64,000 nt of DNA from Clostridiaceae bacterium (GTDB lineage Bacteria; Bacillota; Clostridia; Clostridiales; Clostridiaceae), in contig JACMJL010000217.1 of assembly GCA_014380625.1 (NCBI GenBank), positions 1-64,000 of the forward strand, written 5' to 3'. The position numbers and the translations under genes were made by a program. Numbering within the stretch: position 1 is the stretch's first letter; each line of letters opens with the position of its first letter. Positions 8,852-63,746 of the stretch are shown piece after piece. The notes under the pieces were generated by a model. That model did no database searches and was not told the origin of the DNA. It saw only the letters and a list, made by a program, of their open reading frames with translations.

Positions 8852-8880
8852 TTGTAAACAAGAAACACCCATGTTATAAT
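8852..8880 (+). promoter_or_regulatory. Promoter of the MutS2-like unit
   Basis: TTGTAA (8852-8857) and a perfect TATAAT (8875-8880) with a 17-base spacer. The start near 8887 leaves only about 25 bases before the first leader ORF. Confidence 0.7.
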
Positions 8881-8911
8881 TAATTTAATTCTATACGAAG
8901 GAGAATGTTTT

Positions 8912-8935
8912 ATGGATAAGGTAGTTCTTAACTAA
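8912..8935 (+). CDS. Leader peptide MDKVVLN upstream of the MutS2-like gene
   Basis: A seven-codon ORF (ATG 8912, stop TAA 8933-8935) with a strong GAAGGAG site seven bases upstream, placed right after a good promoter and right before a structured region that ends in terminators. This is the layout of ribosome-mediated attenuators, in which a ribosome stalled on a short ORF changes downstream folding. Being only seven codons it could arise by chance, but the Shine-Dalgarno sequence and context support real translation. Confidence 0.6.
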   Translation: MDKVVLN

Positions 8936-8940
8936 GTAAT

Positions 8941-9088
8941 TAAATATTTAAGTTTAAAAATCCGAAAAGCCTATAAGTAATAGGTTTATTTAGTTGCGAA
9001 TTTTTAAATTTAAACTTAGATGAGAACACGCAGAAACTAAATCCTTTGGTATTTAGCAGATTAACCGCGGGTGAGCGGTATTTTTTTG
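8941..9088 (+). promoter_or_regulatory. Structured attenuator leader with first terminator
   Basis: After the leader ORF a long-range pair forms (TTTAAAAATCCG at 8953-8964 with CGAATTTTTAAA at 8997-9008), enclosing a CCTAT/ATAGG hairpin (about 8970-8984). CTAAAT at 9037-9042 can pair with either of two ATTTAG copies, one upstream (8988-8993) or one downstream (9051-9056), so two folds exclude each other. The leader ends in a GC-rich stem ACCGC/GCGGT (9064-9068, 9075-9079) followed by seven T's. A second mini-ORF, MRTRRN, starts at 9020 but has no clear binding site. No known riboswitch class was recognised. Confidence 0.65.
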
Positions 9089-9120
9089 TTGAATTTTTGA
9101 TTGGTAAATTTAGGATTACT

Positions 9121-9166
9121 AGGACTGTAAATGAATTTGTTTTCATTTATGGTCCTTTATTTTTTG
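9121..9166 (+). terminator. Second, strong terminator in the same leader
   Basis: A 15-bp stem (9121-9135 with 9142-9156, two G-T pairs), loop of six, then TTATTTTTT. It lies between the promoter and the MutS2-like gene, so transcription must pass two terminators in a row. The AGGAC/GTCCT base makes it the stronger of the two. Confidence 0.8.
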
Positions 9167-9182
9167 TAAAGGGGGAATTTAA

Positions 9183-9251
9183 ATGTCAATTGTATTAGGT
9201 GGTATTAAAGTAAAAAATAAAGATATAAATGGAGGAATTAGAGTTGAATAA
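9183..9251 (+). CDS. 22-codon ORF overlapping the start of the MutS2-like gene
   Basis: ATG 9183 follows AAAGGGGG; the peptide begins MSIVLGGIKVKNK and ends NGGIRVE before TAA 9249-9251. It overlaps the proposed TTG start of the next gene (9244) by eight bases in another frame, and the GGAGG for that gene lies inside it. This suggests translational coupling: ribosomes finishing the short ORF re-initiate on the ATPase. No similarity recognised. Confidence 0.5.
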   Translation: MSIVLGGIKVKNKDINGGIRVE

Positions 9252-11178
9252 TAAAACCTTAGAACTATTAGAATTTGATAAAATTAAGGAAATAATAAAA
9301 GGGTACGCCCTTTCTGAAGATGCTAAGGAGCAAATCCAGAAGTTAGAACCCTATTTGGATATTAATATAATAGAAAAGAACATGAATGAAACCATGGAGG
9401 CTAGAGCAATTGTGAATATAAATTCAAGTATTCCAATTCATAGCTTGAGTGGAATAAAGCACTTAAAAGAAAAAATTAATAAGGGTGGGATTCTTTTCCC
9501 CGAAGAGCTAGGAAGCCTATGTGGTTTATTAAAAGAAACTAAGAAATTAAAAAGGTTTATGTTAAATAAAAATGAAGTCGCTCCAATTATAAGTACCTTT
9601 GCACTATCTACCTATGAACTTAATGATTTAGTTGAAGAAATAGAAAAAAGTATAGATGGGTCTAGAGTAACTGATAAGGCCAGTGGGAATTTATCAAAGC
9701 TTAGAAAGCGGATAATAATCTTAGAGGATAGAATTAAAAGTAAGCTAGATACTTTACTTAGAAATGCAAAGTATAAAAACTTTATACGAGACGCACTTGT
9801 TAGTCAAAGAAATGGTAGATATGTAATTCCCGTAAAGAGTGAATATAAAAATAATATTGAAGGAGATGTATTAGATAAGTCAGGTAGTGGTTCTACTGTG
9901 TTCATAGAACCTGAAGAAATTAAGAGATTACAAAATGAATTGAATATATTTAAAATTGAAGAAGAAAATGAAGTATATAAAATTCTCGCTGCCTTAACAG
10001 TGTTGGTTACCAGTTATGAAAGAGAAATAAATATCAATATTGAAACTATGAGTTATTATGATTTTCTCTTTGCAAAGGGAAAGTATAGTAAAACAATTGA
10101 TGGAAGAAGCGTAAAGCTTAATACAAGTAACTATATAAAAATTAATAAAGGAAGGCATCCACTTATTGGAAGTAATGTTGTACCCTTAGATTTTGAAGTA
10201 GGAAAAGCATACAATTCTGTAGTAATAACCGGACCTAATACTGGAGGAAAGACTGTAGCGCTTAAAACAGTGGGACTTTTAACAATTATGGCTCAATGCG
10301 GTTTACAGGTGCCTGTAGCAGCGGAGAGTGAATTTGCTATATTTTTAGATGTATTAGCAGATATTGGTGATGGTCAAAGTATAGAACAAAATTTAAGTAC
10401 TTTTTCTTCTCACATTACAAATATTATAAATATTTTAAATACTGCAGATAAGTACACTCTTGTGATCATGGATGAAATTGGTGCTGGTACAGATCCAGGA
10501 GAAGGCATGGGTATAGCTGTATCGGTATTAGAAGAGATTTACAAAAAAGGATCTATTATATTAGCCACTACCCATTACAGTGAAATCAAGGAATTTGCAT
10601 TAAAAAACCAAGGTTTTATTAATGGTTGTATGGAATTTGATATAGAGACCTTAAAGCCTCTCTATAAATTAAGTATAGGAAAACCTGGAGAAAGTAATGC
10701 CTTTTTAATTGCACTAAGACTGGGGATGAATAAGTTAATTATTGAGAGAGCCCATTTAGTAACTTATAAGGAAAAGAAAAATTATGAAGATTACAAGACT
10801 GAAATTATATTAAAACCTATTATAGAAGAGGACCATAAAGAAAAAATCATAAAGCTACAGAAAATTAATAAAATTTCAGAAAAACAAAAGGCTAAATCAA
10901 AATTTAACATTGGAGATTCTGTGTATATAACTTTTATGAAGAGAAGTGGAATTATCTGTGAACTTGAAAACTCTAAGGGTGATTATGGAGTTATGGTGAT
11001 GAAAAAGAAGCTGAAAATAAATAATAAGAGACTTTCTCTATATATTTTACAGGATGAGTTATATCCAGAGGATTATGATTTTGATATTATTTTTGAAAGT
11101 GTAGAAAATAGAAAAAAAGATAAGATAATGAGTAGAAAACATGTTGATGGAATTAAAATTGTTAAGGAAGATTTTTGA
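9244..11178 (+). CDS. MutS2-like ATPase lacking the Smr nuclease domain
   Basis: 644 residues from TTG 9244, eight bases after GGAGG; ATG 9229 would place the binding site inside the gene. It has the MutS2 order: N-terminal core/lever (LELLEFDKIKEIIKGYALSE), a coiled clamp region, the segment GRYVIPVKSEYK and SGSGSTVFIEPEEI, then the ATPase with Walker A GPNTGGKT (about 330-337), Walker B LVIMDEIGAGTDPGEG (about 404-419) and THYSEIKEFA. About residues 553-600 (FNIGDSVYITFMKRSG) look like a KOW domain. The C-terminal Smr endonuclease domain of full MutS2 (about 785 residues in B. subtilis) is absent. B. subtilis MutS2 acts on collided or stalled ribosomes through its ATPase and KOW parts; a similar role here is inference. 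The gene sits behind a leader-ORF attenuator with tandem terminators. Confidence 0.88.
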   Translation: MNNKTLELLEFDKIKEIIKGYALSEDAKEQIQKLEPYLDINIIEKNMNETMEARAIVNINSSIPIHSLSGIKHLKEKINKGGILFPEELGSLCGLLKETKKLKRFMLNKNEVAPIISTFALSTYELNDLVEEIEKSIDGSRVTDKASGNLSKLRKRIIILEDRIKSKLDTLLRNAKYKNFIRDALVSQRNGRYVIPVKSEYKNNIEGDVLDKSGSGSTVFIEPEEIKRLQNELNIFKIEEENEVYKILAALTVLVTSYEREININIETMSYYDFLFAKGKYSKTIDGRSVKLNTSNYIKINKGRHPLIGSNVVPLDFEVGKAYNSVVITGPNTGGKTVALKTVGLLTIMAQCGLQVPVAAESEFAIFLDVLADIGDGQSIEQNLSTFSSHITNIINILNTADKYTLVIMDEIGAGTDPGEGMGIAVSVLEEIYKKGSIILATTHYSEIKEFALKNQGFINGCMEFDIETLKPLYKLSIGKPGESNAFLIALRLGMNKLIIERAHLVTYKEKKNYEDYKTEIILKPIIEEDHKEKIIKLQKINKISEKQKAKSKFNIGDSVYITFMKRSGIICELENSKGDYGVMVMKKKLKINNKRLSLYILQDELYPEDYDFDIIFESVENRKKDKIMSRKHVDGIKIVKEDF

Positions 11179-11647: not shown

Positions 11648-12112
11648 ATGGATAAAACGATATTAACACACAACGGAGTAAAGAAACTAGAGGAAGAATT
11701 AGAATTTCGTACTGGAATAAAAAGAAGAGAAATTACGGCTTCAATCAAAGAAGCAAAAGCACATGGTGATTTAAGTGAAAATGCAGAATATGACGCAGCT
11801 AAGGATGATGAAGCAACGAATAATGATAGAATACTAAAGATTCAAGATTTGCTTAATAATTGCACTGTAGTAGAGGATGAAGCTAATGATGGTAAATTAG
11901 GTCTTGGAGGACAGGCTGATATTAAATTCCTTGATACTGATGATGTTGAAAAGGTGTGTTTAGTATCTACAGTAGAAACTAACCCAGAAACAATGGCTAT
12001 TAGTATAGAATCACCATTAGGAATTGCAATATACAGAAAAACAGTTGGAACAAAATGTGTGGTTGTATCGCCTGAAGGAAATTATGAAGTTGTTATTGAA
12101 AAAATCTATTAA
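11648..12112 (+). CDS. greA: Transcript cleavage factor GreA
   Basis: 154 residues, close to the family's usual 158. The N-terminal coiled-coil (to about residue 75) carries the tip motif HGDLSENAEYDAAKDDEA, whose acidic residues reach the RNA polymerase active site and trigger cleavage of backtracked RNA. The C-terminal domain (VCLVSTVETNPETMAISIESPLG) is the FKBP-like half. It has its own terminator and no operon partner. A second greA elsewhere in the genome is possible. Confidence 0.88.
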   Translation: MDKTILTHNGVKKLEEELEFRTGIKRREITASIKEAKAHGDLSENAEYDAAKDDEATNNDRILKIQDLLNNCTVVEDEANDGKLGLGGQADIKFLDTDDVEKVCLVSTVETNPETMAISIESPLGIAIYRKTVGTKCVVVSPEGNYEVVIEKIY

Positions 12113-21257: not shown

Positions 21258-21315
21258 TTAAAATTTTCTTGTATGAAAATAATTTTTATGTTAGTATTAT
21301 GAAGAAATTAAATAA

Positions 21316-21410
21316 TAAGCAGGGGAGCTAGTTTGTCTAGCTGAGAGTAAGAATTTAAGTCTTTGACCCTTAACCTGATCTAGATAATGCTAGCGTAGGA
21401 AGTTTTTAAA
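21316..21410 (+). promoter_or_regulatory. TPP (THI-box) riboswitch
   Basis: Conserved parts in order: AGGGGAGCTAG (21321), GCTGAGAGTAAG (about 21340), TTGACCCTTAACCTGATCTAG (21363 onward), ATAATGCTAGCGTAGGAAG (21385 onward). Binding of thiamine diphosphate is expected to favour the terminator that follows and so switch off thiD. Confidence 0.95.
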
Positions 21411-21421
21411 TGTGATTTATT

Positions 21422-23878: not shown

Positions 23879-23895
23879 AATATATAATAAACTAA

Positions 23896-24125
23896 AACGA
23901 TGAAGAGAAGAGTAAACTGTGTCTGGTTTTCAGAGAAAAGATAGAAATGGTGTAACTATTTTTAAACTAAGGCAGTTGAAGACTACCTCGGAGTGACTTT
24001 AATACAGTCCGGTAATTCCGTTATAATTATAACAAGTGTTTATTTTTATAAACTAACTGGGTGGAACCACGGGATTTATACTCTCGTCCCTTTTCTAAAT
24101 TTTAGAAAAGGGACGAGAGTTTTTA
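23896..24125 (+). promoter_or_regulatory. T-box leader of thrS
   Basis: Stem I opens with GATGAAGAGAAGAGTAA (about 23899); the specifier side is GAAGACTACCTCGG at about 23979-23992. Aligned with the valS leader (GAA, one base, triplet, purine, CC/CTC), the specifier reads ACT (Thr). ACC, two bases further on, is the alternative. The T-box core GGGTGGAACCACGGG is at about 24058-24072, and the terminator stem is CTCGTCCCTTTTCT with its complement and a T run. Senses uncharged tRNA-Thr. Confidence 0.93.
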
Positions 24126-63439: not shown

Positions 63440-63735
63440 AAAAACCCCCGTCCTTAATTAAAAGGACGAGAGTGAATTTCCCGTGCTACCACCTTAGTTT
63501 ACTATTATCTCACGATAACAATCTTTTCAAGTTCGCCAATGTTTAATTGGGTATACTCTAGCACTATAACGGGTGCAAAAATCCGGCATCCACCTACTTG
63601 CATAACAGCTTTTATCTAGCAAATGCGTTCAGAGTGCAGCTCAGAGACGTATTCAGATTAAACAGCTTTGCCCCTCTCACCAACCGGGAACTCTCTTTTA
63701 AGCTTTATTAATCTTACTTTTTCTCATCAAAGCCT
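63440..63735 (-). promoter_or_regulatory. T-box leader of tyrS
   Basis: Read on the minus strand: stem I starts with GATGAGAAAAAGTAAG (about 63728), the specifier loop is CTGAATACGTCTC with TAC (Tyr) at 63651-63649 followed by G, the T-box core is AAGGTGGTAGCACGG near 63495-63481, and the terminator is CGTCCTT/AAGGACG with a T run at about 63440. The specifier agrees with the gene product. Confidence 0.95.
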
Positions 63736-63746
63736 TATAAATTTTT

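Follow-up and report, generated by a model that had tools for sequence, protein, structure and literature searches.

A predicted ribosome-mediated attenuator ahead of an Smr-less MutS2 paralog, a candidate inducible ribosome-rescue factor

Introduction

Bacillus subtilis MutS2 splits stalled ribosomes without cleaving mRNA, an activity that requires its ATPase, and cells that lose it become more sensitive to chloramphenicol, tetracycline and erythromycin (PMC10897456). Deletion of its Smr domain strongly reduces ribosome binding, and contact between the KOW domain and uS10 has been suggested to suffice for partial activity without Smr (PMC10897456). HflXr provides a precedent: a paralog of a ribosome-splitting factor that is controlled by uORF attenuation (PMC6310831). 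Among resistance genes, tet(M) is listed as attenuator-controlled with tetracycline as the inducer (PMC5418344), ABC-F leaders of similar logic answer lincosamides and pleuromutilins (PMC9226507, PMC10201436), and a NusG-dependent pause motif, TTNTTT, has been defined and is known from vmlR (PMC9226507).

Here we analyse a locus within a 64,000-nt stretch of a Clostridiaceae contig (JACMJL010000217.1), the whole of which we call the window. We read this unit as probably a ribosome-mediated transcription attenuator followed by a MutS2-type factor for ribosome rescue or drug tolerance that is induced by stress and has no nuclease. The protein resembles canonical MutS2/RqcU (B. subtilis MutS2, TIGR01069; PDB 7qv3, 8qpp, 8r55) in its core/lever/clamp, its ABC ATPase with Walker motifs and its KOW-type domain, with ~40% identity over residues 1–550, but it is a paralog without Smr that belongs to a separate clade, has a unique ELYPEDYDFDI tail and lies behind an attenuator leader. 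Like HflXr (Listeria lmo0762), it would be a splitting-factor paralog under uORF transcription attenuation, and putatively a drug-inducible one; HflXr, however, is an HflX-family protein rather than a MutS-fold ATPase, and its uORF has 14 codons with an RLR motif.

The leader itself has described counterparts. That of tet(M) shares the Shine-Dalgarno sequence (SD), a 7-codon ORF (MRQGILK), the P1 pairing described below and terminators, but its ORF ends I-L-K and its client is an EF-G-like protection protein. The vmlR and cplR leaders (PMC9226507, PMC10201436) likewise have a uORF, an anti-antiterminator and a terminator, to which vmlR adds a pause hairpin with TTNTTT; unlike the leader studied here, both have 3-codon ORFs (MIN, MRI), a single terminator and an ABC-F client. 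The KamC reactivase ATPase (NF052383) is also MutS2-like and without Smr, but the window protein scores below the KamC cut-off, and its match to that 508-position model ends before the KOW region.

Results

All parts of the unit lie on the forward strand. A promoter-like site at 8852–8880 (TTGTAA-17-TATAAT, with TG ahead of the second hexamer) matches at 10 of 12 positions. An earlier sequence-only reading had called it a good promoter; the site exists, but it is plausible only, since the density of such sites in the region (18) is at the level of shuffles (18.6). Downstream, the leader ORF ATGGATAAGGTAGTTCTTAACTAA (8912–8935) encodes MDKVVLN and a stop, and is preceded by an SD, AAGGAG (8898–8903), as is the ORF in relatives. 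Its last 12 nt, GTTCTTAACTAA (8924–8935; codons V-L-N-stop), are the 5′ arm of a pairing, P1, whose 3′ arm TTAGATGAGAAC lies at 9016–9027. Folding places a hairpin, P2 (8948–9013), between the two arms, enclosing a further hairpin, P3 (8967–8987; AAGCCTAT...ATAGGTTT), which is also supported by alignment. Immediately 3′ of P3, TTATTT (8986–8991) fits the NusG-dependent motif, and relatives carry TTTATTT, which contains TTNTTT, after the same hairpin (conserved in alignment A3).

Hairpin searches located terminator 1, ACCGCGGGTGAGCGGT (9064–9087; stem 9064–9079, followed by a T-run), and terminator 2, AGGACTGTAAATGAATTTGTTTTCATTTATGGTCCT (9121–9166; hairpin 9121–9156, followed by a T-rich tail), in agreement with the tandem terminators and SD-preceded 7-codon ORF of the sequence-only reading. 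The region holds three terminators, where shuffles give 1.1 ± 1.1. The window's terminator 1 stem, ACCGC/GCGGT, has diverged from the CCGTGC..GCACGG form of relatives. Beyond what had been described, we found the pairing of the leader ORF with 9016–9027 and a second short ORF at 9183–9251 (MSIVLGGIKVKNKDINGGIRVE and a stop; SD AAAGGGGG), whose stop overlaps the TTG start of the gene. Similar ORFs occur in the closest relatives only, and the overlap with the gene start suggests possible translational coupling there. No Rfam family matched the leader; elsewhere the window holds three T-box leaders (601–852, 23891–24094 and 63459–63739) and one TPP riboswitch (21311–21418).

The leader ORF is not a chance occurrence. 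An SD-preceded ORF of 6–9 codons ending [VI][LFVI][NK] was found in 59 of 94 distinct upstream regions, against 0.7% in dinucleotide shuffles and 0/94 on the opposite strand, and none of 18 canonical mutS2 genes carries it. The ORF end is nearly invariant at the DNA level, and its exact complement, TTAGTTAAGAAC, sits 80–135 nt downstream (about 90 nt) in the leaders of relatives; such a complement is present in 51/94 leaders versus 0.3% in shuffles. In alignment A3, 94.4% of P1 cells pair, falling to 24–51% on sliding, and three pairs have changed on both sides. Both the P1 and the antiterminator sites were located by complementarity, and it is therefore on the slide and swap controls that these tests rely. 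Pairing is kept in leaders with altered ORF ends, MSESVHN (GTGTTCATAACT/TATTATGAACAC) and MSASVLI (TTCTTATCTAAC/GTTAGATAAAGA), which serve as illustrations rather than a test because the complement was picked as the best match. RNAalifold returned no structure on a MAFFT alignment because the P2 region does not align, and P1 was therefore set by hand. In part of the distant clade the leader peptide is a different one (MSGVVSK, MFSI) or was not found; in a distant Clostridium clade, ORFs read MSGVVSK, MSV or MFSI, and the pairing GTATCT/AGATAC replaces GTTCTT/AAGAAC.

Every one of the 51 leaders with both ORF and P1 has at least one terminator and 46 have at least two, compared with 6 and 0 in shuffles; the automatic call of the window's own terminator 1 in this survey is a hairpin-finder artefact. 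Conservation of the leader ORF and terminators upstream of homologues, on which the sequence-only reading depended, is thus borne out. The segment after P1 (AAGAACACGGA in Clostridium, AAGAACAGCGGAT in Paenibacillus) complements the 5′ arm of terminator 1 (TCCGTG, ATCCGTGCTGTT), and the resulting antiterminator duplex is stronger with its own partners (−8.27 kcal/mol) than with swapped ones (−7.33 ± 0.22 kcal/mol). P1 overlaps the leader ORF, and folding and pairing suggest that a ribosome there would block P1, consistent with an anti-antiterminator role. With the transcript ending short of terminator 1's 3′ arm, occupying the ORF with a ribosome raised the mean modelled probability of the antiterminator from 0.05 to 0.81 (45/49 leaders); for the window leader, no strong antiterminator was predicted (modelled probability 0.00). 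In equilibrium folding, terminator 1 stays formed even with a ribosome on the ORF. Since equilibrium favours the finished terminator and only transcript-length-limited folding shows its loss, the switch has to work kinetically.

An AT-rich genome contains many short ORFs and weak hairpins, and the window's antiterminator is not predicted, which could mean that these features are unrelated, the terminators ending upstream transcripts and the ORF being there by chance. Conservation and the shuffle, opposite-strand, slide and swap controls contradict such a coincidence, which we regard as highly improbable, and matching architecture stands ahead of unrelated resistance genes.

That last observation comes from a covariance model, R1, built solely from MutS2-paralog leaders, whose E-values are rough. 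Across 207 family genomes, R1 found 44 sites at E ≤ 0.001, ahead of 26 MutS2 paralogs, 7 tet(M)-type genes, 5 ABC-F genes, 3 bpsA genes and 3 others. Among 398 phylum-spread genomes, where clients were identified from blastp matches to known ones or by reading the frame, there were 21 sites (14 MutS2 paralogs, 4 ABC exporters, 1 ABC-F, 1 tet(M) and 1 serine hydrolase), and sites in 49 named genomes were mostly ahead of MutS2 paralogs, plus bpsA operons. Searching for an SD and the pattern MxxxVLN with a stop further placed the leader ahead of a Vat acetyltransferase (NF000311 score 345.7, cut-off 300), an ABC-F protein, MBL-fold hydrolases and methyltransferases. The Tet(M) client scored 1508 against a cut-off of 1420, with a 644-aa frame at all seven tet(M)-type loci; one complete ABC-F gene was above its cut-off (456.6 versus 380); and the bpsA-speD clients were confirmed by the BpsA_C and SpeD models. 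R1 matched tet(M) leaders at E 3e-6 to 1e-5. The leader class is thus common to resistance genes, namely tet(M), ABC-F, Vat and drug-exporter genes, as its kind had suggested to the earlier reader.

Several loci in these surveys stand out individually. At eight tet(M)-type loci, the end of the leader ORF MRQGILK pairs with a downstream CA(G/A)TTTAAGAAT, as in MutS2-paralog leaders. The ABC exporter behind the leader is a half-transporter found in four genomes of one genus. The gene for branched-chain polyamine synthase, bpsA, recurs behind the leader at eight loci in Paenibacillus and clostridia, with speD next in at least two cases; at one of these loci, bpsA is split in two overlapping frames (151 + 252 aa) by a frameshift or sequencing error. 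A search of open-licence PMC papers turned up none that ties branched polyamines to ribosome-stress attenuation.

The polyamine genes bpsA-speD share the leader, so its clients go beyond drug resistance; together with the nearly invariant V-L-N codons, they would also suit a classical amino-acid attenuator or a translation-speed sensor (Val/Leu/Asn codons), through which the paralog would answer starvation or any slow-down rather than drugs. We judge this unlikely: no single regulatory codon is repeated in a row, the ORF of tet(M) leaders ends in I-L-K and that of other leaders in V-S-K or V-L-I, the P1 pairing explains the nucleotide conservation, and the tet(M), ABC-F and Vat clients are drug-resistance genes. 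A leader that responds to stalled ribosomes is the reading that we carry forward to the protein.

TTG 9244 is the most likely start of the gene: it has an SD (GGAGG, 9231–9235), whereas the alternative ATG 9229 has none. The gene ends at 11178. Profile searches, a structure model and alignments identify its product as an Smr-less MutS2 paralog of 644 aa, the length and family given by the sequence-only reading. It scores 608 against a cut-off of 400 with the NCBIfam mutS2 model TIGR01069, in a match that spans only model positions 1–521 of 790. The layout comprises core/lever/clamp, an ABC ATPase, a KOW-like domain (~553–601) and a conserved tail with ELYPEDYDFDI. Walker A (~330–337) and Walker B (410–411) are intact, with GPN(T/A)GGKT and DE kept. 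An AlphaFold2 model (pLDDT 84.5) has B. subtilis and Thermotoga MutS2 as Foldseek neighbours.

A domain-model search of the window protein gave no Smr match, as the sequence-only reading had claimed, and the HGxGTG motif of Smr is present in 0/107 Smr-less homologues versus 18/18 canonical MutS2 proteins, all 18 of which have DxRG...HGKGTG. We file the protein in the Smr-less paralog clade rather than with canonical MutS2 because the C-terminal Smr domain is missing. The KOW-like region noted earlier is likewise upheld: the C-terminal region forms a KOW/SH3-type barrel, and hhalign identifies it as a homologue of the KOW region in canonical MutS2 (probability 96.8, E 3e-10). The Pfam family MSSS (MutS2 and Smr-associated SH3) matches 18/34 members, and the best Foldseek match of the region is B. 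subtilis MutS2 on a collided disome (E 1.4e-3). KOW residues touching uS10 are kept only partly, and the tail that follows the barrel, ELYPEDYDFDIVFESKENRKK, is clade-specific.

A stress attenuator of the kind described could also serve a protein whose target is not the ribosome, one acting in DNA recombination or, as KamC does, in radical-enzyme reactivation. The MutS fold and the match to the KamC model NF052383 (E 5e-58) would allow this, the ribosomal function of the clade being a predicted one. We consider it quite unlikely. The KamC score of 197 is under its cut-off of 300 whereas the TIGR01069 score exceeds its own, and the protein keeps the KOW-type domain and lacks the MutS mismatch domains I and II; the MutS1 model scores 106 against a cut-off of 642, with homology confined to the core and domain V. 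In addition, structural comparison ranks MutS2 bound to collided ribosomes first, and the leader is common to ribosome-protection genes. Models of defence systems gave no match.

Among 148 relatives, canonical MutS2 (~790 aa) occurs in most genomes and a second copy of ~640 aa in many, the Smr-less paralog co-occurring with canonical MutS2 in the same genomes. Such second copies occur in many Clostridiaceae and also in Paenibacillus and other Bacillota. A GTDB signature scan found 524 loci, of which 80 were kept, in Clostridium, Paenibacillus, Alkaliphilus, Geosporobacter, Fictibacillus, Petroclostridium and others. By these counts, drawn from representative genomes, the predicted paralog is present in hundreds of soil and gut bacteria, with plasmid-borne copies in Cytobacillus and Paenibacillus. 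A tree built from 89 Smr-less proteins and 18 canonical ones splits the two groups by a branch with support 100, which places the Smr-less clade apart from canonical, Smr-bearing MutS2. A close homologue (57%) in a record titled Calditrichales groups with Bacillota on the tree, by transfer or through a misassigned bin. We did not find a canonical MutS2 in the genome that the window comes from, an absence that is not interpretable because the assembly is 81% complete.

Beyond the gene itself we found no conserved neighbourhood, other recurrent matches being antisense frames of the gene or near-relative synteny; the leader is therefore the only element that accompanies the gene. Directly downstream in the window lies a gene for a GreA/GreB-type transcription elongation factor (11648–12112), which is not a conserved neighbour elsewhere.

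Discussion

We propose that the cell probably makes the Smr-less paralog only when drugs or stress stall ribosomes. The sequence-only reading, which had inferred the same trigger, is supported in part, by the comparative results. In the off state, the 7-codon ORF would be translated quickly and its ribosomes would leave, so that the ORF end could pair with its complement ~90 nt downstream to form P1, the putative anti-antiterminator; RNA polymerase would pause at the P3 hairpin and TTNTTT, and the tandem terminators would end transcription. In the on state, a drug-stalled ribosome on the leader ORF would block P1, and the freed 3′ flank would pair with the 5′ arm of terminator 1 and let the gene be read. 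The MutS2 ATPase would then act on stalled ribosomes, probably by splitting them. Because Smr deletion from B. subtilis MutS2 strongly cuts ribosome binding, an Smr-less protein needs another anchor, which the KOW-type domain and the clade-specific C-terminal tail may provide in place of the Smr collision sensor.

We infer drug induction, antitermination in vivo, and ribosome binding and splitting by the paralog. There is about an even chance, in our estimate, that these proteins form a dedicated and widespread drug-inducible MutS2 ATPase family that clears antibiotic-stalled ribosomes without Smr, as a client of a Bacillota attenuator class shared with tet(M), ABC-F, Vat, exporters and, surprisingly, bpsA-speD. 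Literature searches of open-licence PMC papers gave no description of such a leader paired with an Smr-less MutS2, consistent with the sequence-only reading, which knew of no case.

If this reading is true, many environmental and gut bacteria would have turned MutS2-type splitting into an inducible response to drugs, and HflXr would be joined by a second splitting-factor paralog whose attenuation responds to drugs. The Smr collision sensor would then be dispensable when expression is itself conditional, and a family annotated as 'endonuclease MutS2' would gain a testable function. The R1 leader model could be used to find further resistance or rescue genes, and its polyamine clients would make branched polyamines candidates for a connection to ribosome stress.
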